Of a DNA stretch of 64,000 nucleotides, positions 28,305 through 63,400 are shown piece by piece. The DNA is taken from NCBI GenBank assembly GCA_023954855.1, contig JAGSGY010000005.1, forward strand, positions 62,001 to 126,000, in the 5' to 3' direction. Source of the DNA: Pseudomonadota bacterium (lineage in GTDB: Bacteria; Myxococcota_A; UBA796; GCA-2862545). Position numbers and translations under genes: made by a program. Under the pieces are notes generated by a model that worked only from the letters and a program-made list of their open reading frames with translations, was not told the DNA's origin and searched no databases. The number at the start of each line of letters is the position of its first letter. Within the stretch, counting starts at the first letter, position 1.

Positions 28305-28892
28305 ATGGCTGAGTCCGACCTGCGAGAGGTCATCGTTCGTGAGGCCACGCGCTTGTTTGCGCAGCGTGGCTACGGTTCGACGTCCATGCGAGAGCTGGCG
28401 GCCGCCGCCGGCGTCACGAAGCCGACGCTTTACTACCACTTCGGGAACAAAGAAAGTTTGTTCCTCGATGTGGTGCATTTCCACATCAGCCAGATCGACG
28501 ACCTGGTTCGCGATGCACTCGCCGTCGATGGTGGGGTGCGTGATCGACTGCGCCGTTTTGCTGTGAGCTACATCCAAGAGGGTGCTGCGAACCAAGATGC
28601 GCTTCGTCTTCTGGTCACGGTGCAGCACCCGGTCGACAAGGGTCAGCCCATGGTCGATGTGATGAGCCTTCACTTGCGCAAGATCGACGTCCTGCGCGTG
28701 GTGTTCCAGAAGGGCCTGGATCAGGACGAACTTCGTGCTGATCTCGACCTTGGTGCTGCGGTCATGGCCTTCATTGGCATGGTCAATCTCGCTTGTATGG
28801 CGGCTGTCTTCAGCCCCTGCGCCGGCCCCTTCGACGTTGAAGGTCAGGCCGATCAGATTCTCGACATCTTTTTCCGAGGAGTGGGGGCGTGA
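28305..28892 (+). CDS. TetR/AcrR-family transcriptional repressor
   Basis: 195 residues with GGAG 5 bases before the ATG. The N-terminal ~60 residues are a canonical TetR helix-turn-helix: 'IVREATRLFAQRGYGSTSMR' then 'ELAAAAGVTKPTLYYHFGNK'. The C-terminal ligand/dimerisation domain is helical and variable, as usual. It is the first gene of a three-gene operon with an RND adaptor and pump (GTGA overlap with the adaptor). By family precedent it should bind the palindromes at 28254-28290 and be released by a compound the pump exports. Confidence 0.92.
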   Translation: MAESDLREVIVREATRLFAQRGYGSTSMRELAAAAGVTKPTLYYHFGNKESLFLDVVHFHISQIDDLVRDALAVDGGVRDRLRRFAVSYIQEGAANQDALRLLVTVQHPVDKGQPMVDVMSLHLRKIDVLRVVFQKGLDQDELRADLDLGAAVMAFIGMVNLACMAAVFSPCAGPFDVEGQADQILDIFFRGVGA

Positions 28893-29962
28893 GCCGCTAC
28901 CTTTTGGTCTTGACCGCGGCGCTAGCCGTTGGGTCGTTGGTGGGATGTTCGGCCGACGCGGAGCAAGTCTCCACGAACGCCGCCGTTCCGAGTGGTCGCG
29001 CCACGCGCGTCGAAGTGGTGGCTCTCGAGCCGTCAGTAGCGAGGGTTGATCTCAACCTGCCGGGTGAAGTGCAGGGGTCCCGTGATGCGGACCTCGCGGC
29101 TGCGCTCGGAGGCTACGTCGAGTCGGTGAAGGTCGCGCCTGGCCAGGTCGTCAAGAAGGGGCAGCACCTCTTCTCGATTGATGCCGAGCTGTACGGGGCG
29201 TCCGTCGCCCAGACCGAAGCTCAGCTCGAGCTTGCTCAGTCCGAGCTCAGGCGTACCGAGGCGCTGGGCGACCTGGCAAGCGAGGCTCAGCTCGAAGGGG
29301 CACGGACCAACGTCCGCGTGCTCGAGGCGGGTCTACGGCAGGTGCGCGCCCAGTACCGTCGCGCCCGGATTACTGCGCCCTTTGCGGGCACCATGGCCCA
29401 GGTCGAGATCGAGGTCGGCGAGGTCGCTGGCCCCGGTCGCGCCATCGCCCGGCTCGTTCAGCTCGACCCAGTGCGGGTGACCCTGTCGGTGCCGGACCGC
29501 GACGTCGTCGCGCTGTCACCCGGCATGGACGTAGAGGTGACCTCCCCGGCTCGACCGGGTCAGTACACGGGCCGCATCGCCCACGTCCCCGCGGCGGCGT
29601 CAATGAAGACACGCACCTTCGAGGTCGAGGTCGAGGTCGACAACCCAGAGGGCGACTTGCTTCCCGGCATGATCGCTCGCGTTCGCGTCGCTCAGGAGCT
29701 CGGCGGTGACGCGGTCGTCATCCCCCAGGACTGGGTCGTTACCGGTCTCAACGGTTCTGGCGTCTACATCGAACAAGACGGCGTCGCGCACTGGCGACCC
29801 GTCGAGCTCGGCCGGGTCACCTACGACCAGGTCGTCGTGACCAGTGGCGTCAACTTCGCCGACCGCATCGTCATCAACGGGCACCGCAGCCTGATGGACG
29901 GCGACTCGGTCTTGGTTTCCCGCGAAGGCACGTGCTGTGCCACCGGCCGTCCGGTCTTTTAG
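28889..29962 (+). CDS. RND efflux periplasmic adaptor (membrane fusion protein), lipoprotein
   Basis: 357 residues. Lipoprotein signal peptide with lipobox LVGC (Cys20), so it is inner-membrane anchored like AcrA. Domain order follows the family: barrel-sandwich half motif ('GGYVESVKVAPGQVVKKGQHLFSID'), a short alpha-hairpin (~100-150, 'AQTEAQLELAQSELRRTEAL'), the second lipoyl half ('ARITAPFAGTMAQVEIEVGE'), then the beta-barrel and membrane-proximal domains. The start GTG overlaps the tetR stop. It bridges the pump to the outer-membrane channel, which here is fused to the pump encoded 9 bases downstream. Confidence 0.92.
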   Translation: MSRYLLVLTAALAVGSLVGCSADAEQVSTNAAVPSGRATRVEVVALEPSVARVDLNLPGEVQGSRDADLAAALGGYVESVKVAPGQVVKKGQHLFSIDAELYGASVAQTEAQLELAQSELRRTEALGDLASEAQLEGARTNVRVLEAGLRQVRAQYRRARITAPFAGTMAQVEIEVGEVAGPGRAIARLVQLDPVRVTLSVPDRDVVALSPGMDVEVTSPARPGQYTGRIAHVPAAASMKTRTFEVEVEVDNPEGDLLPGMIARVRVAQELGGDAVVIPQDWVVTGLNGSGVYIEQDGVAHWRPVELGRVTYDQVVVTSGVNFADRIVINGHRSLMDGDSVLVSREGTCCATGRPVF

Positions 29963-29971
29963 GAGCCAAGA

Positions 29972-32900
29972 ATGGTCCGTTGGCTCGTCCATCACTCCAC
30001 CACCGTGCTGATCGCCGTGATCTGCGTCGTGATCTTCGGCACGCTCAGCTACGTGACGCTTCCCCGTGAGGCGAATCCAGACATCAGCATTCCCCTCGTG
30101 CTGGTGACAACACCGTACGTGGGTGTGTCCCCAGAAGATGTCGAGGGTCTCGTCACGGTCCCCCTCGAGCGTGAGCTCTCGTCCCTTCAAGACGTGAAGA
30201 AGCTCAGCTCAACCTCGGCCGAGGGCGTGAGCATCGTCGCGATCGAGTTCGAGCCCGACGTCATCATCGCCGATGCCGTGCAGAAGGTTCGGGACCGCGT
30301 GTCGCGCGCGAAGTCGACGCTGCCGACCGACGCTGAAGAGCCGTCGATTCGAGAGATCAACTTCTCGGACATGCCGATCATGATGGTGACCATCGCTGGT
30401 CCCGTCGACGAAGAGAAGCTCAAGGAGCTTGCGGAGGACCTTCAAGACAAGGTGATCCGTGTTCCCGGTGTGCTCGAGGCCAAGATTGCCGGTGGGCTGG
30501 ACCGCGAGATCCAGGTCCATGTCGATCCGATTCGTTTGGCCCACTACGGGCTGGCGCTGCACGATGTGACGGGCGCGATTGGCGATGCCAACAGCAACAT
30601 CCCCGGTGGTGAAGTCGTCACCGGCCAAGGCAGTGTGTTGGTGCGGACGCCTTCGGAGCTCACTCTCGGTGAGGAGATTGCTGAGGTTCCGATCAAGCGG
30701 GTGGGGGACCGGCCGGTCTTTGTCCGAGACATCGCGCGTGTGGTCGATGGCTTCTCGACCCGTGCCTCCTACGCTCGCATGAACGGACAGCCCTCGGTGT
30801 CCTTGTCGATCAGCAAGCGGCCTGGTGCTAACATCATCGCGGTCGCGGATGAGGTCAAGGGACTGGTTGCCGGGCAGTCCGAGCGCTGGCCGGAGGGCGT
30901 CGAGTTCAAGATTCTCGCCGACCAGTCCGAGCAGATTCAGGCCTCCGTCGACGAACTTCAGAACAACATCATTACCGCCCTGATCCTCGTTGTGGCCGTC
31001 ATTCTCGGCTTCATGGGACTTCGCAGCTCTGGCTTTGTGGCTGCCGCCATTCCGCTGTCCATGCTCGCCGGCTTCATCGCGCTCGATGCAGTGGGCTTCA
31101 CGCTCAACATGATCGTGTTGTTCAGCCTGATCTTGGCGCTCGGTATGTTGGTCGACAACGCCATCGTGGTGGTCGAAAACATCTATCGCCACATGGAGAT
31201 GGGCAAGGACCGCGTAGAGGCGGCCATCGATGGCACCAATGAGGTCGCCGTCGCCGTCGCGGCCTCGACGGCCACGACCGTGGCAGCGTTTCTGCCCCTC
31301 GTGTTCTGGGGCGGCATCATGGGCGAGTTCATGGGCTTCCTGCCGAAGACCCTGATCATCGTGCTGCTGTCGTCGCTGATCGTGGCGGTGTGTGTGCTGC
31401 CGGTCTTCACATCGACATTCATGAGCGCGAAGAAGACGGGCCGGGACGAAGAGGCCCTCGATGTGGTCGACTTGAGCGCCGTGGGGCCAGTGATGGGCGC
31501 GTACGTGAAGACGCTTGGTGCGGCCATCAGCTTCCGCTATGCGACCGCCGCACTCGGCGTGGCCACCCTGCTGATCACGTTTGTGATCTACGGCTTCTTC
31601 AATCATGGCCTCGAGTTCTTCCCCGACACCGAGCCCAACCGCGCCATCGTGAGTCTTCGCGCTGCCGACGGGACCGACCTCGAGACTACGGACCGCGTCG
31701 TGCGGGAGATCGAAGGTGTGCTGAGCCGAGAGGAGAACATCGATCTCTGGGTGGCCGAGACCGGCGTGTCCGGTGCCTCCGATCCCTTCTCGGGCCGCCA
31801 GACCTCGACCAACGAGGCCAAGATCACCATCGACTTCCTGCCCGACGGGAACAGCGCCGACCCGGGTGAGAAGGTCCGCATCGAGCCGACAACACAGACG
31901 ATCTCCCGCCTACGTGCGAGCCTCGGGGAGTTCCCTGGAGTCACCGTCACCGTCGAGCCTGAAGCCATGGGACCGCCGGTCGGCGAGCCCATCGCCGTCG
32001 AGGTCTCCGGAGATGATTTCCACGAAGTGGGCGCGCTCGCCCAGCTCGTCCGTCGTGAGATGAGCGCCATTCCCGGCGTGACCGACCTCTCCGACAACTA
32101 CCGCGTGGGCCGTCCGGAGCTTCAGCTCCGCATCGATCGTGGTGCTGCAGAGCGGGTGGGTGTGAAGGCCAATCTCATCGGCAACACCGTTCGCACCGCC
32201 GTGGCCGGTGCCAAAGCCAGTGAGATTCGCGATGGAGAGGACCGCTACGACATCGTCGTTCAGCTCGATCCCGTCTACCGTTCCGACATCCAGTCGGTGC
32301 TCGACATTCGCCTTCCAGGTCGCGAGGACACCAGTCCAAGCACGTTCCCCGTGCCGATTTCTGCCGTGGCTTCCTACGAGCTGGCCGCCGGCACTGGAGC
32401 CCTGCAGCACATCGACCAGGACCTGGTCGTGACGATCAAGGGTGACGTGCTCAAGGGCTTCAACGAGAACGAGGTCCGGGCCCAGGTGAGCAAGATGCTC
32501 AAGACCATGGACACGCCTGATGGCTTCCACATGCGGCTCGGCGGTGCCCAAGACGAACAGGCGGAGTCGATGGCCTTCCTAGGGCGCGCCTTCTTCATCG
32601 CCATCGCGCTCATCTTGATGGTGCTCGTCACCCAGTTCGACAGCCTGTGGATGCCCGCCATCATCCTCGCGAGCGTGGTGCTGTCGCTGACCGGGGTGCT
32701 CTGGGGGCTGCTGCTTACGGGTATGCCCTTCGGCGTCATCATGACCGGAATCGGCGTGATCAGCCTGGCGGGTGTGGTCGTCAACAACGCGATTGTGCTG
32801 CTCGACTATGTCCAACAACTCGAAGGGCGAGGTCTCTCTCCACGCGATGCACTGGTTCAGGCCGGACTCGTTCGCTTCCGTCCCGTGATGCTGACTGCCG

Positions 32901-34483
32901 TGACGACTGTCCTCGGGCTCATTCCGATGGCCCTCGGTCTGTCCGTCAACTTCTCGGCGATGGGTCGCCTGGAGTTCCACCGGGTCATTCAGATTGGCGG
33001 TACGAGTGCGCAGATGTGGGGTCCCATGGCGGTGGCCGTGATCTTCGGTCTGTCCTTCGCGACCGTGCTCACCCTCATCATGGTTCCGACGCTGTACGGC
33101 ATCTACGCCGATGTGCGGAAGCTCACCTCGGGCAAGTCCGTGACGCCAGCCGTGGCGGCGACCGTGGCCAAGCTCGCGCCGATTGCCCTGCTTGGATTGG
33201 CGCTCGCGCCCAGCGCGCAGGCCGAAGAGTTCGAGCAGACGGTGACCCTCGAGCAGGCCTGGACTTCGGCCGCGGACAAGCACTACGACCTGGCGATGGT
33301 GCACGAACAGACGATTCAGGCCGAGTCGCTTCGAGGGCAGGCTTGGGCGGCGCTGTCGCCGAAGGTAGTGGCGGGTGCCGCGTACACGGTGAACGAGCTC
33401 GAGATTGCCTTCGACACGGCTGACATGATCCCCGAGCAGTTTCAGGACATGATCGAGCCTTCGGACCCGATGATCATCCAGCCCAAGACAGCGTGGTCTG
33501 GAAACTTGACGGTGGTTCAGCCCCTGTTCTCGGGCAGCGCGTTGCCGGGTCTCAAGGGAGCCTACGGAACCGCAGAGGCCGCTCGCTCTGACGAGGAGCG
33601 GGCGACGCAGCAGATCCGCGCGGGCGTTGCACGCACCTACTATGGGCTGCACACGGCCCGGGCGCGGGTGGACATGGTTCGTGCTTCCCAAGAGCGCGCA
33701 GCCCACCAGCTCGAGCTGGCGACGCGACTTGAAGGGGCCGGCTCCGTTGGCGAGCTGTCGTTGCTGCAGGCCCAGGTCGGCCTCTCGCAGGCCAGCCGTC
33801 AGCTTCGAGATGCGGAAGAAGGTGAGCTGCAGGCGAGGCTCGCATTCGAGCTTGCGACCGGGCTCTCTGGCGATGTGGGCCTCGAGACTCCCGCGGTTGT
33901 GGCGGTGCCAGCCTCGGTGGATGAAGCGGTGGCGATGGCTGCTCAGGAGCGCCCCGACGTGGCCGCGGCTGAGTCGCGGGTACGCGTGGCACGGTTGCAG
34001 CGTGACGGCACCTGGCTCCAGTGGGCCCCGAAAGTCGATGCGTCGTTTTCGTACGTCTACAACGAGGCGACGGGCTTCGCAGACCAGAAGCTGTTCTGGG
34101 TCGCGAAGGTCGAGGGCAACTGGACCCTCTGGGATGGCGGAGCCATCAAGGCCCGAGCGAAGTCTGCGGCATCGCAGGCCCGCGCCGCCGAGTACGCGCG
34201 TCTAAAGGCCGAGCTCGAGGCCGAGCACGATGTGCGGCGCTCGTGGGTTCGCTTCGAGGCTGCGGACCGAGCGCTCGAAGACGTCGCGCGAGAGGTGGCG
34301 CTGGCGGAGAGGTCCCTCGCGTTTGCCGAGCGTAGCCTCACGGCTGGCAGCGCGACTTGGCTCGACGTCGAGCAGGCGCGCACCCAGTTAGATGGCGCTC
34401 TTGTGGCCGAGATGGCGGAGCGCATGGCTCGTGACCTCGCGGCCATCGACTTGCTCGTCGCAACCGGAACCTACGGAAGCTAG
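29972..34483 (+). CDS. RND efflux pump fused to a TolC-like outer-membrane channel
   Basis: 1503 residues in one uninterrupted frame. Residues 1 to ~1050 are a complete RND (ACR_tran) transporter: N-terminal helix 'STTVLIAVICVVIFGTLSYV', porter domains, and the TM4 proton-relay motif 'LGMLVDNAIVVVENIYRHME'. A segment at ~1065-1084 looks exactly like a signal peptide (Lys, hydrophobic core, cleavage site AQA). Residues ~1085-1503 match the outer-membrane efflux family ('TVTLEQAW', 'LSPKVVAGAAYTV', 'ALVAEMAERMARDLAAIDLL') at the full mature size of TolC. Either the polyprotein is cut by signal peptidase after export, or the channel is restarted internally; no ribosome site supports a restart at the GTG codons 33140, 33152 or 33164. 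The stop overlaps the convergent KASIII gene (CTAG). Confidence 0.88.
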   Translation: MVRWLVHHSTTVLIAVICVVIFGTLSYVTLPREANPDISIPLVLVTTPYVGVSPEDVEGLVTVPLERELSSLQDVKKLSSTSAEGVSIVAIEFEPDVIIADAVQKVRDRVSRAKSTLPTDAEEPSIREINFSDMPIMMVTIAGPVDEEKLKELAEDLQDKVIRVPGVLEAKIAGGLDREIQVHVDPIRLAHYGLALHDVTGAIGDANSNIPGGEVVTGQGSVLVRTPSELTLGEEIAEVPIKRVGDRPVFVRDIARVVDGFSTRASYARMNGQPSVSLSISKRPGANIIAVADEVKGLVAGQSERWPEGVEFKILADQSEQIQASVDELQNNIITALILVVAVILGFMGLRSSGFVAAAIPLSMLAGFIALDAVGFTLNMIVLFSLILALGMLVDNAIVVVENIYRHMEMGKDRVEAAIDGTNEVAVAVAASTATTVAAFLPLVFWGGIMGEFMGFLPKTLIIVLLSSLIVAVCVLPVFTSTFMSAKKTGRDEEALDVVDLSAVGPVMGAYVKTLGAAISFRYATAALGVATLLITFVIYGFFNHGLEFFPDTEPNRAIVSLRAADGTDLETTDRVVREIEGVLSREENIDLWVAETGVSGASDPFSGRQTSTNEAKITIDFLPDGNSADPGEKVRIEPTTQTISRLRASLGEFPGVTVTVEPEAMGPPVGEPIAVEVSGDDFHEVGALAQLVRREMSAIPGVTDLSDNYRVGRPELQLRIDRGAAERVGVKANLIGNTVRTAVAGAKASEIRDGEDRYDIVVQLDPVYRSDIQSVLDIRLPGREDTSPSTFPVPISAVASYELAAGTGALQHIDQDLVVTIKGDVLKGFNENEVRAQVSKMLKTMDTPDGFHMRLGGAQDEQAESMAFLGRAFFIAIALILMVLVTQFDSLWMPAIILASVVLSLTGVLWGLLLTGMPFGVIMTGIGVISLAGVVVNNAIVLLDYVQQLEGRGLSPRDALVQAGLVRFRPVMLTAVTTVLGLIPMALGLSVNFSAMGRLEFHRVIQIGGTSAQMWGPMAVAVIFGLSFATVLTLIMVPTLYGIYADVRKLTSGKSVTPAVAATVAKLAPIALLGLALAPSAQAEEFEQTVTLEQAWTSAADKHYDLAMVHEQTIQAESLRGQAWAALSPKVVAGAAYTVNELEIAFDTADMIPEQFQDMIEPSDPMIIQPKTAWSGNLTVVQPLFSGSALPGLKGAYGTAEAARSDEERATQQIRAGVARTYYGLHTARARVDMVRASQERAAHQLELATRLEGAGSVGELSLLQAQVGLSQASRQLRDAEEGELQARLAFELATGLSGDVGLETPAVVAVPASVDEAVAMAAQERPDVAAAESRVRVARLQRDGTWLQWAPKVDASFSYVYNEATGFADQKLFWVAKVEGNWTLWDGGAIKARAKSAASQARAAEYARLKAELEAEHDVRRSWVRFEAADRALEDVAREVALAERSLAFAERSLTAGSATWLDVEQARTQLDGALVAEMAERMARDLAAIDLLVATGTYGS

Positions 34484-35547
34484 GGCCAGCGGATCAGCAT
34501 GGCGGCCTGGGTAAAGCCTGCGCCTGGGGAGTAGACCAGCACCCAGTCGCCAGACTTCACCCGGCCACTGATCACGCCGAGGTGGAGGTTCAAGCCGACG
34601 CTGGCGGCCATCAGGTGGCCGTACTTCGCGAACTGCTCTTCATGCGGGAGGACCCGCTCGCCCGGAATGGCGAGCGCGTCCGCAAACGCGCTCCCGAACC
34701 AGGCTGTAGTGTGGGGAACGGCCAGAAATCCGATGTCTACGCCATCGAGTCCGTGGCGTGCCAGCAGAGGCTCGCAGACCTCGCGACACCGGGTCACGGC
34801 TTGAGCGGCCATCGTGTGCGTGGCCTCGTGGTCGTGATGCCGAGCGAGCAGCGGCTGTTGGTGACGGTCTCCGCGGTACCAAGGCGTAGAGACAGGGTCC
34901 GGAGCCAGCACGATGCCGCCGTGCAGCTCGCCACGTGTGAGCACTTCCGTGTCGACGAGCCCGCGATGTGGGGGCGTCGGGCCGACCAGGGCGGCTACGG
35001 CGCCGTCACCGAGGAAAGGGGCGGACGGCGCGCCCTCGTCGAGGATGCGGGACATTGCCGAGCTCGCGACGACGATGGCGTTTCGGTACGCGCCGCTCTG
35101 AATCAGCCGGGATGCGGTGGCCGCCCCGGTCACAAAGCTTGCGCAGCCCGTGTCGAGGGTCATGGCCGTGACGGTCGGCGGGAGGCCAAGCTTGTGCGCG
35201 ACCAGGCCGTGGTTGAGTGGCGACGGAAAGTCGGGCACCTGGGATGACACGATGAGCAGATCGACCGGCTCGTCGCCGAGGACCTGCCGCGCGGCGAGCG
35301 CCTCCATGTCCGAGGAGGCGTGGTGCTCCGCCATCACCCGGCGCTCGCGAGCTCCACGAAACAAGTCGCTGGTGAATCGGGCGCTGTGCCGGGCGACTTC
35401 GATGTCGACGGTCGACGTCACATCGAGCTGCGTGATGACGTCGTCGTGCACGCGCCCCGCATGCGCCTTTGCCCACTCAGCGCCCCAGAAGTCGTTGGTA
35501 CGAACCTGGGAGGGCAGATGGGCGCCGAGTCGGAGAATGCCGGTCAC
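34480..35547 (-). CDS. 3-oxoacyl-ACP synthase III (KASIII/FabH)-like protein, atypical active site
   Basis: 355 residues of thiolase fold. The nucleophile Cys is in 'MTLDTGCASFVTGAA' and the first catalytic His in 'AVPHTTAWFGSAF' (HQAN position). At the usual Asn of 'YGNTSAAS' the sequence reads 'KYGHLMAASVG', so Asn is replaced by His. That change, and the lower overall similarity to FabH, argue for a secondary-metabolism condensing enzyme or acyltransferase rather than housekeeping FabH. The GTG start overlaps the stop of the ThDP enzyme gene (GTGA), implying the two act on the same substrate line. Confidence 0.82.
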   Translation of the reverse strand: MTGILRLGAHLPSQVRTNDFWGAEWAKAHAGRVHDDVITQLDVTSTVDIEVARHSARFTSDLFRGARERRVMAEHHASSDMEALAARQVLGDEPVDLLIVSSQVPDFPSPLNHGLVAHKLGLPPTVTAMTLDTGCASFVTGAATASRLIQSGAYRNAIVVASSAMSRILDEGAPSAPFLGDGAVAALVGPTPPHRGLVDTEVLTRGELHGGIVLAPDPVSTPWYRGDRHQQPLLARHHDHEATHTMAAQAVTRCREVCEPLLARHGLDGVDIGFLAVPHTTAWFGSAFADALAIPGERVLPHEEQFAKYGHLMAASVGLNLHLGVISGRVKSGDWVLVYSPGAGFTQAAMLIRWP

Positions 35548-37226
35548 GAAGCCCGCATCGACTGAATCTGCTGAATGCGAGGGCTCGCCACGGTCTCCCG
35601 CGACACGGGGAACGCGAGCAGGAGCGGACCGTCCTGTCCGTCTCGTAGGACCCGGGCGAGGTGGCGGGCATCGCTGACGCGGTGCGCGCGCACACCGAGG
35701 GCTCGAGCCATGGCGACCAGGTCGACCTTGGGGAGCTCGGCGACCTCACAACGGCCGAACAGCGCGTTCATGCCGTCATCGACCATGCCGAGATGGCCAT
35801 CCTCGAACACGGCGAAGGTGACGGCGAGGCCTTCGCGAGCACACGTTGCGAGCTCGGTGCCGCACATCATCATGCCGCCGTCGCCGCAGATACTGACGAC
35901 TCGTCTTCCCGGCTGGCTCATGGCAATGCCCATGGCCGAGCCGATTCCCGAGGTCATCCCGGCGAGTCCGTGCGAGACAAAGAACTGGTCGGGGCCATCG
36001 ACCACGAGGTGTTGTGCGGCGGCAAGCAGGTGGTTTCCGATGTCGGAGGTGAAGGCAGCGTCGCGGCAGTGGCGCTGGAGGGCCTGCACAACCGCGCCGG
36101 GCTCGTGTGGGGCCAGGTCGAGAGGCTGTGGAAGGCCACGGGCCGGAAGCGACCGATTGGCCAGGTCGCGCTGGATGAGAAGGTGGGCTGCCGGCGAGCC
36201 CGCCGCGCGAGAGAGCTCGTCCAGGACGGCACCCAAGTCGCTGGAGAGAAGCTGGACGCCGGGGTGGCGGCTCAAGCGCGCCAGTGAGTGATCGATGTGG
36301 GCCGTGTACGCCCGCGCCCCGCGAAGCTGCTTGACCGAGCCCGCGGTGGTGGGGTCGAGGCGCGCTCCGACGGTCAAGATCAGATCCGCCTGGTCGAGGG
36401 CTGCGTTGGCGCGTCCGTCTGAGCCAGGGCCGACGAGACCGGCCGAGAGGGGGTGCCGTTCGGGGAAGAGACCCTTGGCTTCGACGTCAGTGATGACGGT
36501 CGCGCGATGGAGCTCGGCGAAGGCCAGCACGGGCATGGAACAGGCGGCTGCGCGTGCGCCGACGCCCAACCAGAGTACGGGGCGCTGGCTTCTGGACAGC
36601 GCGTCGGCGACCTCGTTCAGCTGCAGAGGGACGGTCGTCGGCGTCGCGATGCTGGCGGGTGCCGGCGTCGCGGCCGGACGCTCGAGAAGGTCCACGGGGA
36701 GGGCGAGCAGCACTGCGCCGCGGGGGTGGGATTCGGCGGCGTTCAGAGCCTCTTCGAGCATCTGGGGCACGTCATCTGCCGTCTCGGCGCGCGCGACGTG
36801 CTTGCACAGCGATCCGAACACACCGAGAACGTTGAGCCCTTCTTCACGGCCATCCTGGAGGACGCCCATGCCTTGGTGGTCGGTAGCGACCTCACCGGCG
36901 AGAATGAGCAGCGGCACTTCGTCCTCGGTTGCTGCCGCCGCCGCCGTCGTCAAGTTGAGCAGTCCAGGTCCCGAGGTCACGGCGACGGCTCCGGTCACGC
37001 CGCGTGCGTGCGCGTAGCCGAGGGCTTGGTAGCCGGCCATGCCTTCGTGCAGGCTGGTGACGACGCGGATGGCGTGGTCCTGGGCGCCGTCAAACACGGG
37101 CGAGATGGTGCCGCCGGGAATGCCGAAGAGCGTGTCCACTCCGGCCGTTGCGAGGCGCGCCAGGAGTCGATCTGTGGAACGAGTGAGAGCCGCGGCAGAG
37201 GCCGCCGGAAGAGCTGTGTGCGACAT
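35544..37226 (-). CDS. ThDP-dependent enzyme of the acetolactate synthase superfamily
   Basis: 560 residues. The Pyr domain has the catalytic Glu in 'TSLHEGMAGYQALGYAHA', and the PP domain has the ThDP/Mg motif 'CGDGGMMMCGTELATCAREG' followed by 'FAVFED'. The central domain ('RPVLWLGVGARAAACSMPVL') is of the transhydrogenase-like kind common to AHAS, pyruvate oxidase and 2-hydroxyacyl-CoA lyases. Expected chemistry is decarboxylation of a 2-oxo acid or carboligation giving an acyloin. It is not the ilvB of branched-chain synthesis by context: no ilvH or ilvC follows, but a KASIII-like enzyme does. There is no strong ribosome site before its ATG. Confidence 0.85.
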   Translation of the reverse strand: MSHTALPAASAAALTRSTDRLLARLATAGVDTLFGIPGGTISPVFDGAQDHAIRVVTSLHEGMAGYQALGYAHARGVTGAVAVTSGPGLLNLTTAAAAATEDEVPLLILAGEVATDHQGMGVLQDGREEGLNVLGVFGSLCKHVARAETADDVPQMLEEALNAAESHPRGAVLLALPVDLLERPAATPAPASIATPTTVPLQLNEVADALSRSQRPVLWLGVGARAAACSMPVLAFAELHRATVITDVEAKGLFPERHPLSAGLVGPGSDGRANAALDQADLILTVGARLDPTTAGSVKQLRGARAYTAHIDHSLARLSRHPGVQLLSSDLGAVLDELSRAAGSPAAHLLIQRDLANRSLPARGLPQPLDLAPHEPGAVVQALQRHCRDAAFTSDIGNHLLAAAQHLVVDGPDQFFVSHGLAGMTSGIGSAMGIAMSQPGRRVVSICGDGGMMMCGTELATCAREGLAVTFAVFEDGHLGMVDDGMNALFGRCEVAELPKVDLVAMARALGVRAHRVSDARHLARVLRDGQDGPLLLAFPVSRETVASPRIQQIQSMRAS

Positions 37227-41378: not shown

Positions 41379-43013
41379 CTATGCCAAAATCGCGGTGATT
41401 CGATCCGACAAGCTCCGGTCTTCCAAACGATCGTAGCCAGGAGCGGCTTCGGTGCGGAGATGCGAAATGACGGCCTGCAGTGCGGGGTCGGCGTTGGGGT
41501 GTGCAGCCTCTGCCATCAACACCTGGGTCTGGACGAGTACGCGGATCTCCTCGGCCACGTCTCGCATGTGGACGGCCTGCAGCTGCGGGTCGAGCGAGAG
41601 CAGCTGGCTCCAGCGCTTGCGCACCCGCCGCATCTCATCACTCTGGCCGCCGAGCTCCTCGAGCAGGTCGAAGGTGGCTTCGTGGGTGCCGAGCTTGAGG
41701 CTGTCCTTCAGTACTTGGGCACAGAGCACATTGTGGCCACCCTCCCAGGCCTCGCAGACGATGTCGTCCCGCAACAGGCGGGGCAAGACGCTGAACTCCT
41801 CGATGGCTCCGTTGCCGCCGAGCACCTCAATCGCGTCGCGGACCGCGGTGGTGGCCGCGTGGGCGGTCCAGAACTTGTTGAGGTTGACGAGCATCCGGTA
41901 CGCGGCGGCCTCACGCGGGCCAGCCTGACCCGTTCGCAGCTGATCCGAGAGCCTGGCCAGCAGGAAGGTGACGCTTCGCGCGGCGTAGGCCTCAACCTTC
42001 AGGCACGCCACAATGCGGGCGACGGTTGGATACGCGAGAATCGGCTTACCGAATGCTATTCGAGTGCGCGCATACGCATTGGCCTCCCGGTATGCGCGCT
42101 GGATACTCGCGGCGCTGCACATCGCGTTGAATAGGCGGGAGGTGTTCAGCACGATCTCGACGGTCCGGCGGAAGTCTCCGACGGGCAGGCCTACCGCACC
42201 GTCGAAGTCGACCTCCGCGGAGGCCATGGAGCGGGTGCCGAGCTTATACTTCAGGCGCCGCACGCTGAATCCGTTCACCTGTCCATCGTGTGTGCGGGGG
42301 ACGGCGAAGGCCTGCAGGCCGCGGGTTCCGGGGCCGTTGCCTTCGGGCCGGGCGGTCACCAGGAACATGTGCGCGTCGATGACGCTGCAGAACCACTTCT
42401 CGCCGTACAAGCGCCACTGACCGTCCTCGTCTTGGCGGGCCTGAACGCCGTTTGCGCCCACATCGCTTCCGCCCTGGACCTCGGTGAGGAACTGAGCGCC
42501 GTGGAAGTGGCTGTCATAGTTGGGGTCGAGGAGGCGCTCCATCCAGTCAGAGGGCGGCGCGTCGAGCTCCTGAAGGATCTTGATCAGCCCGGCGGTGCAT
42601 GCGACGGGACAGGCATGGCCCGCTTCGCCGTTTTGAGCGGTCAGGTACAGCAGTGAGCAGGTGGCGAGTTCGTGTCCTGGTGTTCCGTACTTGGACATGA
42701 TTCCGGTGGCGTACACGTGCCGTCCGAGGGCGTGGTAGTCCGGATGAAAGGCCACGGACTCGATGCGGTTTCCTTGGCCGTCAAAGCGCTTGAGCCGAGG
42801 CAGATTCTCGTCGCGATTGGTGATCTTCGCGAGCTCATCGAGCTCGGTCGACACCAGAGCCCCGTAGCTTCGGAGTTCGTCGGCGAGTTCCTCACGCCCG
42901 TGAAAGGCGATCAGGGAACGCAGGTGCGGGTCTGCCTCGTACGCGTTCTCTCGAAGGCGCTCGCGCCACTGGTCGAATCCTTCACGGGCGCTAACGGTTG
43001 CGGGATGGGCCAT
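41379..43013 (-). CDS. Acyl-CoA dehydrogenase-family flavoprotein, AidB-like
   Basis: 544 residues from the ATG at 43013 (GGAGAG just upstream); an in-frame extension further upstream is Arg-rich and overlaps tatD, so it is rejected. Acyl-CoA dehydrogenase marks: 'GAQFLTEVQGGSDVGANGV' (FAD-contact), 'GEKWFCSVIDAHMFLVTARP', and 'RTRIAFGKPI' with the long C-terminal helical part 'IEVLGGNGAIEEFSVLPRLLRDDIVCEAWEGGHNV'. Total length and the extra C-terminal domain match AidB, the alkylation-response flavoprotein (541 residues in E. coli), rather than ordinary ~380-residue dehydrogenases. It lies 23 bases after tatD on the same strand. The 191 bases downstream (41188-41378) contain a direct repeat CTGGCTGTC (41259, 41295) and short hairpins. 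Confidence 0.8.
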   Translation of the reverse strand: MAHPATVSAREGFDQWRERLRENAYEADPHLRSLIAFHGREELADELRSYGALVSTELDELAKITNRDENLPRLKRFDGQGNRIESVAFHPDYHALGRHVYATGIMSKYGTPGHELATCSLLYLTAQNGEAGHACPVACTAGLIKILQELDAPPSDWMERLLDPNYDSHFHGAQFLTEVQGGSDVGANGVQARQDEDGQWRLYGEKWFCSVIDAHMFLVTARPEGNGPGTRGLQAFAVPRTHDGQVNGFSVRRLKYKLGTRSMASAEVDFDGAVGLPVGDFRRTVEIVLNTSRLFNAMCSAASIQRAYREANAYARTRIAFGKPILAYPTVARIVACLKVEAYAARSVTFLLARLSDQLRTGQAGPREAAAYRMLVNLNKFWTAHAATTAVRDAIEVLGGNGAIEEFSVLPRLLRDDIVCEAWEGGHNVLCAQVLKDSLKLGTHEATFDLLEELGGQSDEMRRVRKRWSQLLSLDPQLQAVHMRDVAEEIRVLVQTQVLMAEAAHPNADPALQAVISHLRTEAAPGYDRLEDRSLSDRITAILA

Positions 43014-43036
43014 GGTCTCTCCGGCAGGGGAGCATC

Positions 43037-43795
43037 CTACTCGGGGCACCGGAACAAGCGTCGAGCGTTTCTGGCGCTCTGTTCGAGAAGGTCGTGAGGG
43101 TCGTCGTCGCGGAGGTCGGCGATGAAGCAGGCCACGTCGACTAGACTGTCCAGCGGACCCTGGTCTGGCGCGTCTGTCTCGAACAACAGCTGGTCCGCGG
43201 GCACGCGAAGGGCCGCGCGTTGGGTTCGCTCGCTGCGAAGCACAGCGGGACCGAAGGAGATGTGCAGCCCCAGACCGACTGCTCGATCCGCGAGCTCGGG
43301 GGACCCGGTAAAGGCGTGGAGTACGCCAGCCATGCCGGTGGGCAGGGCGTCGAGCACCGTTCCCCACGCCCGCACACCATGGAGAATGAGCGGCACGCCG
43401 TGCTTCTGGGCCATCTCAATCTGAGCGTGAAAGGCGCGCAGCTGGAGTCGCCTCGAGCGTGGGGCCTTCGCACGCGCCCAGTCCAGGCCGGTCTCGCCGA
43501 GTCCGTGTGGTGTCAAGGTCTCGGTGAGCTGTGCGAGTAGAGCGTCTTGGGCCTCCTCGTCGAGCTCTCCAGCCCACCATGGGTGCAGGCCGAGCTGGGG
43601 AAGCGCCCCGACGCGACGGCAGACTGAGAGGACTCTCTGCCAGTGTGCGGGGTCGGATGCCGAGACTGCCCATCCAAAGATGCCCCGCGATCGCGCCTGC
43701 TCCAGCGCGTCGGCCAACGCGGCGGGGTCGAGGTGGTCGAGGTGTGAGTGGGCGTCGAAGGCCCCCGTCGCTCCGGTTGTGTATTCTCCGGCCAT
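43037..43795 (-). CDS. TatD-family metal-dependent hydrolase/nuclease
   Basis: 252 residues. TIM-barrel metal ligands are present in order: 'FDAHSHLDHL' (His16, His18), 'LGETGLDW' (Glu), 'ILHGVRAW' (His), 'VLHAFTGSPE' (His) and 'FETDAPDQG' (Asp). TatD proteins are Mg-dependent 3'-5' exonucleases involved in DNA repair; the family also includes deacylases. The start ATG is formed by the reverse complement of CAT at 43793-43795 and shares two bases with the start codon of the divergent FHA gene, so there is no intergenic promoter. AidB-like flavoprotein gene downstream suggests a DNA-damage-linked pair, by inference. Confidence 0.9.
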   Translation of the reverse strand: MAGEYTTGATGAFDAHSHLDHLDPAALADALEQARSRGIFGWAVSASDPAHWQRVLSVCRRVGALPQLGLHPWWAGELDEEAQDALLAQLTETLTPHGLGETGLDWARAKAPRSRRLQLRAFHAQIEMAQKHGVPLILHGVRAWGTVLDALPTGMAGVLHAFTGSPELADRAVGLGLHISFGPAVLRSERTQRAALRVPADQLLFETDAPDQGPLDSLVDVACFIADLRDDDPHDLLEQSARNARRLFRCPE

Positions 43796-53682: not shown

Positions 53683-55410
53683 CTACATCGACATCGAGCC
53701 GTCGCGGAACGAGGTGTGGCCGATCAAGGCGTTGATCAGCACCGGTTCGCCCTCGCGAGACGCTGCAAGCGCCTCGTCGAAGCCGGCGTCGATCTTGTCG
53801 TCCTCGGTCATGTGCACGCCGCGGGCTCCGAAGCCTTCTGCGACCACGTGGTAGTCGGTGTGGCGCAGCTTCACTGCGACGTCCGAACCGAGAATGGTGA
53901 CCTGGTCACGGGCGATCTGGGTCCAGCCTGCGTCGTTTCCGACGAGTGCGTTCACCGCGACGCCATGGCGCACGAAGGTGTCGAACTCGGGGATGGTGAA
54001 GCCGGCGGAGCCGTCGCCGTAGACGAGCCAGACATCCGCTTCCGGCCGCACAAGCTTGGCGCCGAGCGCGAAGCCTGCGCCCACGCCGAGAGTACCGAAG
54101 ACCCCGGGGTCGAGCCAGGACAGCGCCTTGCGGGGCTGGCAGATGTACGCCGCGGTCGCGACAAAGTCGCCGCCATCGACGACGAGGATGCTGTCGTCCG
54201 AGAGGTGCCGCTCTAGGCTCTGGCAGACCTTCATTGGGTTGAGATGCGCGTCGGTGGGCTGGTCCGCCATCGCGTCAATCTCAGCACAGCGCGCGTCGTG
54301 GCGGGCCTTGAGCGTCTCGTACCACTCGGGTCGCGTCGGCTGCTGTGCGACGCGAGCGAGGTCGACGAGGAAGTGATGGGGGTCGGCGAGAATGGCGAGC
54401 TCGGGACGACGGTTCTTGGTCAGATCCGTCTTGCACCGGTTGACGCCGATGAGCTTCGCGTTGCCGATGTGTCCGCCGTAGTCGAGGCGGAAGTCCATCG
54501 GGTTGCCCGACAGCACCACCAGGTCGCTCTCTTTCAGCGCGGCGGTGCGCTTGTGGCGCATCTGAAGCGGGTGGTCCTTGCCGAGCAGACCGCGGGCCAT
54601 GCCGGAGAGGAACACGGGGATGTTCAGGGCCTCGACCGCCTCGGTCAGCTCGTGGACCTTTCTCGGCTCGAGCATGGTCTGGGAGCCGATGAGCATCACC
54701 GGACGCTCGGCCTTGCGAAGCATGTCGGCGGCTTTCTGGATCTGCTTCGAGGTGTGCGTCGGGATGTTGGCCGGCTCGGGCGGGTTCGCAGACCGAAAGT
54801 CCTTGAGCGCGAACTGGTTCTTCAGGTGGACCTTGAGGTAGTTCTTGACCGCGGCCTCGCCGAGGTTCCGGGCAGGGCGGTCGGTCTTCTTGACGTACCA
54901 CTCGCGAACGAGTTCCTCCTCGTAGAGAAGGTCGACGGCCAGCTCGACGAAGACCGGACCCGGCACGCCGCTGACGGCCTCGTGGAAGGCGCGTTCGAGT
55001 GCGGGCACGATCTCGCGCACGGTGTTCGGCCGCCCGACGTACTTGACGTGTGGCTTGATCAGCGCGACCTGGTCGATGTCCTGAAGGCTTCCTCGTCCAC
55101 GGAGCACCGTCGCGGCAGCACCTCCGAGCAGGACGAGCGGCGATTGAGCCATCTGCGCGTTCTTGATCGCCGTGATGGTGTTGGTGACGCCAGGGCCGGC
55201 GGTGACGGCGGCGACACCGGGAACGCCGGTGAGACGCGAGACGGCGTCGGCTGCGAAGACGGTGTTGGCCTCGTGGCGCACGTCGATGACCCGAATGCCG
55301 CGGTCCTCGCAGCCAACGAGGATGGGCGAGATGTGCCCTCCGCATAGGGTGAACACAAAACGGACTCCGTGTGCCTGAAGCACCTCGGCGACGCGGTTAC
55401 CACCGTGCAT
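53683..55410 (-). CDS. ThDP-dependent 2-hydroxyacyl-CoA lyase, HACL2/ILVBL-like
   Basis: 575 residues with GGGGAGG 4 bases before the ATG. Catalytic Glu in '[17 protein letters not shown]', central domain '[20 protein letters not shown]', ThDP/Mg motif '[19 protein letters not shown]', then '[13 protein letters not shown]'. The 'EFDTFVRHG...VGNDAGW' run and the C-terminal 'FRDGSMSM' resemble eukaryotic ILVBL/HACL2, which cleaves 2-hydroxyacyl-CoA into formyl-CoA and an aldehyde. It is not a biosynthetic acetolactate synthase by context (no ilvN/ilvC). Downstream of an FAD enzyme and a kinase, but separated by 132 bases, so probably its own unit. Confidence 0.85.
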
Positions 55411-55542
55411 CGAACCTCCCCACCGTCCCCGTCAGGGGCATTGTCGGTGTCCAGCACTAACGCATCCGTGGGCCGTCTGTGGCCTTCTGGCATGCAGCGA
55501 AAAGTCCCGGTCCCAGCTTCTTTGCGCGTCGGTTCGTTGGGT

Positions 55543-60457: not shown

Positions 60458-63400
60458 CTAAGCCGACTTACGGCGGCGGCGCAGCATCAGCGGAGCGAGG
60501 AAGGCGAGCATGAGCGGCGCACCGCCGGTGCCGGACTGGCAGCCACATCCCGAGGGCTCTTCGCGGTCGGGCGGTGCCACGGTGCCACCACCACCGGCGT
60601 CGAGGTAGTTCGGAATGCCGTCGCCGTCGTCGTCACCGATGCCTTCGACAATGTCGGGGACGTTGTCGGCATCGCTGTCGGAGTCGAGGTAGTCGGGCGT
60701 GCCGTCGTTGTCGGTGTCGACCGGGTCGGTCGGGTCATCGCCGGCCTCGGTGGCGTCGAGGATGTTGTCCGCGTCGCTGTCGATGTCGAGGTAGTCGGGC
60801 GTGCCGTCGTCGTCGCTGTCGCCAGTACCCTCGACAGACGTCGGAATGCCGTCGTTGTCATCGTCGCTGTCGGAGATGTCGGGCGTGCCGTCATCATCGC
60901 TGTCGGTGGGATCGTTGATGTCACCCACTTCGTCGCCGTCGGAGATGCCGTCGCCGTCGGAGTCGGCGCTGTCGGGGTTGGAGCCAATCGCGATCTCGTC
61001 CACATCGTCGATGCCGTCACCATCGGTGTCGGGGTCGATGTCGATGGGGAACTCGTCGACGTCGAGGTAGGCGGGAATCCCGTCGGTGTCGGTGTCGTCG
61101 TTGAGGTAGTTGCCGTCTTCGTTGAGGTCCTCGTCGAGGGTGAGGACGTCGTCGTTGTCGTCATCGTCATCGAGGTAGTCGGCGATCTCATCACCGTCGT
61201 TGTCGTCGTTGAGCGGGTTTCCATCGCCGGGACCAAAGTCGTCGACACAGCTGGTCTCGCTGCTCAAACAGTAGTCCTCTTCCTCGGTGGGGATACCGTC
61301 GTTGTCGTCGTCGGCGTCGAGGTAGTTCGGCGCGCTGTCGCTGTCGGTGTCGGGCGCGCTGGTGTGCGGCTGACCGTCGAGCTCGGTGCGCGTACTGATG
61401 CCGTCACCGTCATCGTCGCTGTCGCCACCGTTGGCGATGCCGTCATTGTCGGTGTCGAGGCCGTACTCGTCGCCGTCGGGCACGCCATCGGAGTCGGAGT
61501 CGGTCTCGCAGTCAGAGGTGTCGGTGCCTTCCTGCGTCCAGGTGAGCGAGTCGTTGTCCTCGTCGTCGTCGGGACCGCCGGCGCCATCGCAGTCGGTGTC
61601 GACGCCATCGCCGCAGAAGTCGAATCCGTCGGGGTTGATGTCGACGTTGCTGTCGTTGCAGTCGCCGCCGCGATCGGTCCAGCCTTCTTCGGTGCCACAG
61701 CCGAGACGGAAGTCGTTGTCGAGGCCATAGCCGTCGCCGTCCACGTCGCGGTGGAAGGTCTGGTCGGGCGTGGCGTTGACGTCGGTGTCGTCGCAGTCAA
61801 AGTCGTTCAGCACGTACTGACCGGCCGGCTTCGTGCAGCTGACCACCGCGGTGTCCGTGTCGCCGTAGCTGTCGCCGTCGAAGTCGAGGTACCAGATTGT
61901 GGCCGGGTGCAGGGCAGCGTTGCTGTCGTCGCAGTCCCCACCGATCGAGGCCACCGAGCCTGCCGGCGTGGTGCACTGGGTCGCCACCGAGGTGCCAGAG
62001 CTGTCGCCGTAGCCGTCGAGGTCCACATCGGGCCACCACACCGTGGCCGGGCTCAGGTTGCTGTTGGTGTCGTCGCAGTCGGTGTTGTCGATGACGTAGC
62101 CGTCGGGGGCCGCGCAGTCCTGGCGGCTGTTGTTCGGGTCGCCGTAGTTGTCGCCATCGAGGTCGGCGTACCAGGTCTGGTCGGGAACGCTGTTCGCGTC
62201 GTTGTCGTCGCAGTCGAAGTCGTTGAGCACGTAGCCGGTGGGGGGCACGCAGCCATCGAAGGACACGGCGGCGTTGCCGTAGCTGTCCTCGTCATTGTCG
62301 TCGTACCAGGTGGTGTCGGGGTTGACCGCACCGTTCGTGTCGTCGCAGTCCGTCGCGTCGAGCACGTAGCCCGCGGGCTGCGCACACTGGCTGTTGGCGT
62401 ACACACTCCCCGCATCGCCAAAGAGGTCGACGTCGGTGTCGGCGTACCAAACGGTGTTCGGGTGCAGGGCTGCGTCGTTGTCGTTGCAGTCGCCGGCGAT
62501 CAGTACATCGCTGCCGGAGGCCGGGTCACACTGGGTGTAGCCGGTGCCGACGTTGCCAAAGCCGTCGCCGTCGGTGTCCTGGTACCAGTTCGTGTTCGAG
62601 TTGCGGTCGGCGTTGGTGTCGTCGCAGTCGAGTGCGTTGTCCGCGTAACCAAAGGGGGCGGTACACGCTTGGGTATCGGACCCGGCAACGCCTTCGCCGT
62701 CACCGTCGGAGTCGAGGTAGAAGCTGTATGCCGTCAGCGTGCCATCGGCGTCGTTGCAGTCGACGTTGTTGGCGACGTAGTTGCCGGTGGGCTTGGTGCA
62801 CTGGGTGATCGGCGTGCCGTTGATGTCGCCGGAGCCGTCGGAGTCGTTGTCCTCGTACCAGTTGGTGTCGGGATTCAGGCTTCCATCGGCGTCGTTGCAG
62901 TCGGTGTTGTTGGTGACCGAGCCGTTCTGGGGGTCCTCGCAGTGCTGCGTCGCTGAGCCCGCGCCGTAGCCGTCGTTGTCGCCGTCGGCGTAGTAGGAAG
63001 TGCCGTCGGTGGGGTCCTCGTCGACACTGAGGTCGCAGTCGTTCGACTTGTCGTCGCAGACCTCGTCGTTGCCCGGGTAGTTGGCTCCGTCGGTGTCGTC
63101 GCAGTCGTCATTGCTGGCGACGTGGTTCGTCGGGGCGGAACAGGCCACGACTGGACTGTCAGGGTCGCCGTGCTGGTCTCCGTCGGTGTCGGCGAAATAG
63201 GTGACGCCGTCAATCGGGTGTTCGTCGGTGGCCGTGTCGCAGTCGTTGTTGACGTTGTCGCAGAGCTCGTCGGCCCCCGGATAGGTCGTGTTGACGCTGT
63301 CGTCGCAGTCGACGTTGTTGGCGACGTAGCGGCTCGGCTGCAGGCAGTCGAAGGACACGACGGCGTTGTTGCCGAAGAGGTCGCCATCGTCATCGAGGTA

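Follow-up and report, generated by a model that had tools for sequence, protein, structure and literature searches.

We analyzed a pair of adjacent genes in a 64,000-nucleotide stretch of DNA (referred to here as the window; positions 62,001 to 126,000 of contig JAGSGY010000005.1, assembly GCA_023954855.1) from a bacterium of the Myxococcota_A lineage. The first gene encodes an acetolactate-synthase-like enzyme that depends on thiamine diphosphate (ThDP), and the second encodes a protein like 3-oxoacyl-acyl carrier protein (ACP) synthase III (KASIII), which we call the KAS. An earlier, sequence-only reading of this DNA had described these two open reading frames (ORFs) and an overlap between them. 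We found that the coordinates are correct, that the KAS start codon GTG (35547-35545) overlaps the ThDP stop codon TGA (35546-35544), with four bases common to both ORFs, and that Pfam supports both enzyme types (Table 1). The ThDP enzyme and the KAS probably build a small molecule together. Since myxobacteria and related bacteria repeatedly carry relatives of the pair next to sensor genes, this molecule may be an undescribed bacterial signal.

TABLE 1 Features of the ThDP-KAS locus in the window (aa, amino acids)
Feature	Position	Strand	Assignment or basis
KASIII-like protein, 355 aa	34480..35547	minus	Assigned to a distinct family, clade E; Pfam PF08545/PF08541 (ACP_syn_III + ACP_syn_III_C)
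ThDP-dependent enzyme, 560 aa, acetolactate-synthase-like	35544..37226	minus	Pfam PF02776/PF00205/PF02775 (TPP_enzyme N, M, C)
Overlap of ThDP gene end and KAS gene start, 4 bases	35544..35547	minus	Sequence
STAND-type AAA_16 protein, 1297 aa	37294..41187	minus	Pfam AAA_16; co-directional, upstream, 67 bases from the ThDP gene
Codon of Cys135, FabH acyl-accepting Cys column	35143..35145	minus	Alignment columns
Codons of Pro278 (FabH catalytic-His column) and His279 (Gln column)	34711..34716	minus	hhalign; 61-row alignment
Codon of His311, catalytic-Asn column	34615..34617	minus	Profile-profile alignment

We searched 377 Myxococcota genomes with a 24-member profile of the KAS family and found 45 places in 36 genomes that scored at least 276 bits. 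This count is a lower bound, as five candidates per genome were scored. Below the gap lay two intermediate matches (246 and 245 bits), one truncated match (222 bits), and FabH-type matches at 219 bits or less. Five additional members are carried by named plasmids of Calothrix, Gloeothece, Pseudanabaena, Mycetohabitans, and Streptomyces. In a 61-row alignment, the 50 family rows formed one clade against 11 FabH-type rows, with a Shimodaira-Hasegawa-like approximate likelihood ratio test (SH-aLRT) value of 100. Two HMMER matches (L003 and L004) were left out of the KAS tree as too distant. A contig search with a 6-row family alignment returned six loci, all in metagenome-assembled genomes already in the set, with L073 being another contig of one of them. 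Seven loci lie close to contig ends (L035, L037, L046, L049, L058, L065, and L127). We named the subclades A to F, reading membership from a quick tree in which 20 of 58 forks are open, and the window falls in clade E. Clade F holds 17 Myxococcota loci and the 5 plasmid loci. We concluded from the sequence comparisons that the KAS belongs to a distinct family.

The pair is conserved along with the family. In 38 of the 45 Myxococcota loci, the KAS gene has a ThDP gene directly next to it in the same orientation. The other seven include two that are cut by contig ends (L046 and L049), one with a convergent ThDP gene (L057), and one in which the ThDP gene lies 1.5 kb upstream (L125). Pairwise distances among the KAS proteins and among the ThDP enzymes were correlated (Spearman 0.73 over 820 pairs), the two trees were broadly congruent, and clade E was a supported clade in both. 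The sequence-only reading had called for a search for the pair in other genomes; the same-strand neighbors and the correlated distances show an association beyond chance and bear out a carboligase and a condensing enzyme as a conserved unit. Among the plasmid loci, a ThDP gene was present in two of five. We found no ThDP gene beside the clade F KAS of the Mycetohabitans rhizoxinica (L134) and Streptomyces microflavus (L135) plasmids, where genes for an ACP, an adenylation protein, and an acyl-CoA dehydrogenase follow the KAS gene.

The ThDP enzyme most resembles the large subunit of acetolactate synthase, which gave both its best NCBIfam match (TIGR00118) and its best PDB match (6lpi). The ThDP-activating Glu61 and the Mg-binding motif (GDG from 448 and Asp476) are intact. 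It differs in that it scored 281.1 bits against the TIGR00118 cut-off of 538.35 bits, about half, and in that it groups with the KAS-paired ThDP enzymes of clade E. It also fell under the cut-off of all 25 NCBIfam models among the matches listed. On these cut-offs, we rejected an ordinary acetolactate synthase, the identity that the sequence-only reading had seen as fatal to its proposal. In the ThDP tree, clade E formed one clade (SH-aLRT 100), and clades A, B, D, and F did not each form one clade. The window encodes a second ThDP enzyme (53683-55431, minus strand), whose best NCBIfam match is the acetolactate synthase model PRK05858 (425 bits versus a cut-off of 587). This enzyme was used as the outgroup of the ThDP tree and falls outside the paired enzymes, at the end of a long branch.

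The KAS has the thiolase-type fold of FabH. An AlphaFold2 (AF2) model, in which some segments are of low confidence, had a predicted local distance difference test score (pLDDT) of 74.4 and a predicted TM-score of 0.80, and it matched PDB entry 8vd9 with a Z score of 32.8 and a root mean square deviation of 2.8 over 295 aligned residues. The protein scored 116.1 bits against the NCBIfam fabH cut-off of 292.1 bits and, by this curated cut-off, is not an ordinary FabH.

In Escherichia coli FabH, the active-site residues are Cys112, His244, and Asn274, and Arg249 is the arginine of the HQANxR motif. We found that Cys135 of the window KAS occupies the catalytic Cys column in both the 61-row and the profile-profile alignments. 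Cys is present there in 49 of 50 family rows; L041, with Gly, is the sole exception. His311, in KYGHLMAAS, aligns without gaps to KYGNTTAAS and thus lies in the catalytic Asn column, where seven of the eight clade E rows have His and L041, the row that also lacks the Cys, has Tyr. We then compared a family profile with nine Myxococcota FabH-type sequences by hhalign (100% probability). In this comparison, Pro278 falls in the catalytic His column and His279 lies opposite the Gln of HQAN, and the 61-row alignment agrees. The spacing from the preceding acidic residue to Trp283 is identical in relatives that retain His-Gln, such as L045, so there is no insertion or deletion here. All rows of the 24-row family alignment carry Trp283, which sits at the Arg position of HQANxR. 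Within clade E, Ser, Pro, Ala, or Tyr occupies position 278 and His never does. At position 279, the window is the only row with His; L041 has Glu, and the six remaining rows have Gln. The FabH catalytic His and Asn are therefore both changed in the window KAS.

The sequence-only reading had proposed a Cys-His-His triad. Passages of PMC4425429 describe CosE and DpsC as Cys(Ser)-His-His enzymes. Of the proposed triad, the Cys and the His in the Asn column stand, but the other His does not, since it falls in the Gln column and the catalytic His column holds Pro278. A pairwise phmmer alignment does pair the two His residues, but by opening a gap, and we rejected the literal triad on the register of the 61-row and profile-profile alignments. 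The site is best described as Cys-x-His, a Cys plus a His in the Asn column. Clade D carries the same pattern, and L127 in that clade has His at 279, like the window. The L041 KAS (L041:9353-10651), encoded between a ThDP gene and a histidine kinase (HK) or response regulator (RR) gene, is possibly inactive judging from its Gly and Tyr. The joint loss of Cys and His in this protein fits a joint role of the Cys135 and His311 columns.

We looked for signaling genes beside the pair. Pfam identified histidine kinases, response regulators bearing helix-turn-helix domains, and hybrid kinases adjoining the pairs. For counting, we used local hidden Markov models seeded from 6 and 7 domains of the family loci, so the seeds overlap the test loci, and we applied the same models to 20 random stretches of the same genomes. 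An HK/RR gene lay within 300 bp of the pair in 6 of 7 loci of clade A, 0 of 3 of clade B, 3 of 4 of clade C, 5 of 6 of clade D, 2 of 8 of clade E, and 1 of 17 Myxococcota loci of clade F. Clades A, C, and D together (14 of 17) thus differ from their sister clade F (1 of 17; Fisher test, 1.3e-5). In the random background, 86 of 780 sliding positions (11%) had an HK/RR gene within 300 bp, and 14 of the 20 stretches had no HK/RR gene at all.

The arrangements recur. We found the order RR-ThDP-KAS-HK-HK in L047, L048, L053, and L121; HK-ThDP-KAS in L045; and ThDP-KAS-HK/RR in L042, L043, L044, L059, and L067. The neighboring kinases of clades A, C, and D are of several architectures. The hybrid kinases of L047, L048, L053, and L121 share a conserved N-terminal region of about 370 amino acids (29 to 56% identity among the four) with no Pfam match in the proteins scanned, and we consider this region a candidate ligand-binding domain. 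A comparison of the sensor regions of clade A and L045 revealed no convincing kinship. In clade D, DUF2378 proteins are encoded near the ThDP gene (by Pfam in L058 and L059, and by membership in the same cluster in L052 and L067). As described in part of PMC9257966, DUF2378 is a family of unknown function found only in myxobacteria, and in two myxobacteria the quinolone signal HHQ induced one of its members.

In clade E, the recurring neighbor is a STAND protein. A member of its family (c3) is encoded next to the KAS gene or the gene pair at five loci (the window, L034, L035, L038, and L039); the clade E locus L041 has an HK/RR gene as its neighbor. With a whole-protein profile, we found 12 places of the STAND family, all scoring at least 741 bits and spread over 8 of 377 genomes, with the next match at 179 bits; this is a lower bound, with two candidates per genome scored and L035 cut by a contig end. 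A clade E KAS is also present in six of these eight genomes. A ThDP or KAS gene lies near 9 of the 12 STAND loci (the window, L034, L035, L038, L039, L142, L144, L147, and L148), where L148 is counted through a KAS end fragment on L073, taken to be the same contig. In 7 of the 12 cases (L034, L039, and L142 to L146), a histidine kinase gene on the same strand immediately precedes the STAND gene. This is not so in the window, L038, and L147, and contig ends interrupt L035 and L148. The STAND C terminus aligned with kinase-receiver proteins (hhalign probability, 89.8; E value, 1.8e-6) and looks like a degenerate HATPase domain plus receiver. At L144 (L144:2883-7132), a clade-E-like ThDP gene overlaps a gene for a 260-amino-acid protein, followed by genes for a citrate-synthase C-domain protein and a short-chain dehydrogenase. 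The link of STAND and kinase genes to the enzymes thus does not depend on the KAS alone. The gene neighborhoods thus favor, independently of the sequence-only reading, the possible signal role that it had suggested.

Two STAND copies (G352:C2:71590-75966 and G024:C37:21372-25664) each have one stop codon inside the matched stretch. We also considered antiphage defense and rejected it, as PADLOC gave no match for the three window proteins; the L034 STAND protein had two weak matches in its AAA region (E values, 5e-4 and 1e-3). Upstream of the window STAND gene, on the same strand, lies a gene for an AidB-like acyl-CoA dehydrogenase (41379-43367, minus strand). On the other side, a single ORF of 1503 amino acids (29972-34483, plus strand) fuses an AcrB-type RND pump to a TolC-type OEP protein and converges on the KAS gene. 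It is preceded by genes for a TetR regulator (28305-28892) and a membrane-fusion protein (28889-29962).

The sequence-only reading knew of no characterized pathway with such a pair. Passages of PMC7466098 describe one: in carbazole biosynthesis, the ThDP enzyme CqsB3 and the KASIII-like CqsB1 (NzsH and NzsJ) act in sequence, making an alpha-hydroxy-beta-keto acid and then condensing it decarboxylatively with an acyl-ACP. We likened the window pair to these enzymes by gene types. The carbazole pathway needs the cyclase CqsB2, whereas the immediate neighbors of the window pair are the STAND protein and the efflux pump. No CqsB2 was found among these immediate neighbors (the STAND and RND/OEP proteins), which are the ones tested. 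A 218-amino-acid protein encoded beside a cyanobacterial pair (L133) was tried as a carbazole cyclase and had no PDB or Pfam match.

KASIII-like enzymes also stand beside a ThDP enzyme in the xenocyloin cluster of Xenorhabdus bovienii, which makes indole acyloins and in which XclA is the ThDP partner; we compared this system by description only. XclB and XclC are cited as acylating ketosynthase homologues in parts of PMC4425429 and PMC4578411. PqsD and PqsBC of the Pseudomonas quinolone signal resemble the KAS as signal-making enzymes of the FabH fold and were among the structural matches of its model (Z scores, 31.4 and 30.4), but they share 19 to 24% identity with it in the structural alignments. 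To our knowledge, neither has a ThDP partner. Because the chemistry of ThDP/KAS pairs is already known, the novelty lies in the linkage of this family to sensors and in its variant active sites.

We propose a mechanism for the window pair. An acyl thioester would acylate the KAS on Cys135. A beta-keto acid would lose CO2 by its own chemistry and then attack the acyl group borne by Cys135, with His311 as the remaining base or oxyanion partner. This decarboxylation would be unaided, so the His/Asn pair with which FabH decarboxylates malonyl groups would no longer be needed. A site that keeps the Cys, has lost the His column, and has His in the Asn column suits such a nucleophile, and we therefore propose an acyloin-type or acyl-diketone product. 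The product would bind a regulator directly or through the STAND protein; in relatives, the regulator would be the histidine kinase. The homologies, the active-site columns, the conservation of the pair, and its linkage to signaling genes are observed, and from them we infer the substrates, the product, the order of the steps, and the product as the ligand of the regulator.

Leaving the sensing part aside, we consider it reasonably probable that the two enzymes jointly synthesize an acyloin-type or acyl-diketone molecule. The whole chain, in which the pair makes an acyloin-type or alpha-hydroxy-beta-diketone product that a linked regulator senses, has in our view slightly less than an even chance; as part of that chain, the dedicated regulator in the window clade would be the STAND protein just upstream. 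Such an arrangement would recall the alpha-hydroxyketone quorum-sensing systems CqsA/CqsS and LqsA/LqsS, in which, according to PMC3376566, the gene for a small-molecule synthase neighbors one for a sensor histidine kinase, joined in Lqs by a response regulator gene. In clades A, C, and D, an HK/RR gene lies within 300 bp at 14 of 17 loci; the window has no HK/RR gene within 3 kb and has a STAND protein instead. CqsA and LqsA are single pyridoxal phosphate enzymes, whereas the window synthase would be of the ThDP and KASIII types.

Several observations weigh against the whole chain. Three KAS genes (L036, L039, and L040) have no ThDP gene in the stretch read. Of the 45 loci, 28 have no HK/RR gene within 300 bp; among them are all 3 loci of clade B and all but 1 of the 17 of clade F. 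In the window, no HK/RR gene lies within 3 kb of the pair, and the link to kinases runs through the STAND family only. As the clades are related, counts over loci do not amount to independent trials. AF2 modeled the STAND C terminus poorly (pLDDT, 45), and the kinase-like reading of this part rests on one profile comparison. At L143, L145, and L146, no ThDP or KAS gene was found in the stretch read around the STAND gene, and at L144 the 260-amino-acid and citrate-synthase-like genes stand in the place of the KAS.

The strongest rival is a regulated secondary metabolite. The pair would then make an acyloin, a carbazole-like compound, or an antibiotic precursor, and the kinases or STAND protein would regulate expression without sensing the product. 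Clade F looks like this: an HK/RR gene is close in just 1 of its 17 Myxococcota loci, cytochrome P450-like genes (cluster c6, judged by eye) lie near some members, and its plasmid KAS genes sit beside ACP, adenylation, and acyl-CoA dehydrogenase genes. Homologues of CqsB1 and CqsB3 are reported in Sorangium in part of PMC7466098, and in the window a TetR-membrane-fusion-RND/OEP efflux operon converges on the KAS gene. Against this, the neighbors in clades A, C, and D recur as sensor genes across several kinase architectures, and the STAND family is rare and tracks the enzyme pair. We regard this alternative as possible but unlikely.

A second alternative is that the KAS is an O-acyltransferase comparable to CerJ or XclB/XclC, which would esterify the hydroxyl of an acyloin made by the ThDP enzyme. 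The retained acyl-accepting Cys and the loss of the His column (Pro278) would fit, as CerJ is described in PMC4425429 as having lost a conserved His and acting as an acyltransferase. The same source gives CerJ a Cys-His-Asp triad, and the Asn column of the window KAS holds His and not Asp. On this ground, with the CerJ triad taken from passages of PMC4425429 and not aligned, we rejected a CerJ-type Cys-His-Asp enzyme, and we find O-acylation in general improbable. That the KAS is catalytically dead or nearly so, and assists the ThDP enzyme or the regulator in a structural or sensing capacity, is very improbable: two of three catalytic columns are changed and L041 lacks both Cys and His, but the Cys persists in 49 of 50 family rows, and clade E shows the combined loss of Cys and His in L041 only, which suggests a joint catalytic constraint.

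Among the open-access papers searched, the only one found that combines acyloin, thiamine diphosphate, and quorum sensing is on obafluorin, and none was found that unites most of thiamine pyrophosphate enzyme, 3-oxoacyl-ACP synthase, histidine kinase, quorum sensing, and myxobacteria. A synthase whose product is sensed nearby invites a broader, more tentative proposal, to which we give well under an even chance: an undescribed signaling class of Myxococcota, in which a ThDP enzyme and a KAS with its catalytic His relocated or lost would make an acyloin or acyl-diketone signal read by a dedicated histidine kinase or by a STAND ATPase whose tail is kinase-like. Such a class would parallel CqsA/CqsS chemically while using unrelated enzymes, and it would have diversified into at least four clades.

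The family offers a natural series of KASIII sites (Cys-His-Asn, Cys-Asn-Asn, and Cys-x-His) in which one could ask what purpose the FabH His and Asn serve with a nucleophile other than malonyl-ACP. For myxobacteria, which are social and predatory, a Cqs-like signal with its own synthase and receptor, if true, would add notably to the known biology. Should the linkage be borne out, the family would provide many synthase-sensor pairs for testing and a genome-mining route to acyloin-type compounds.

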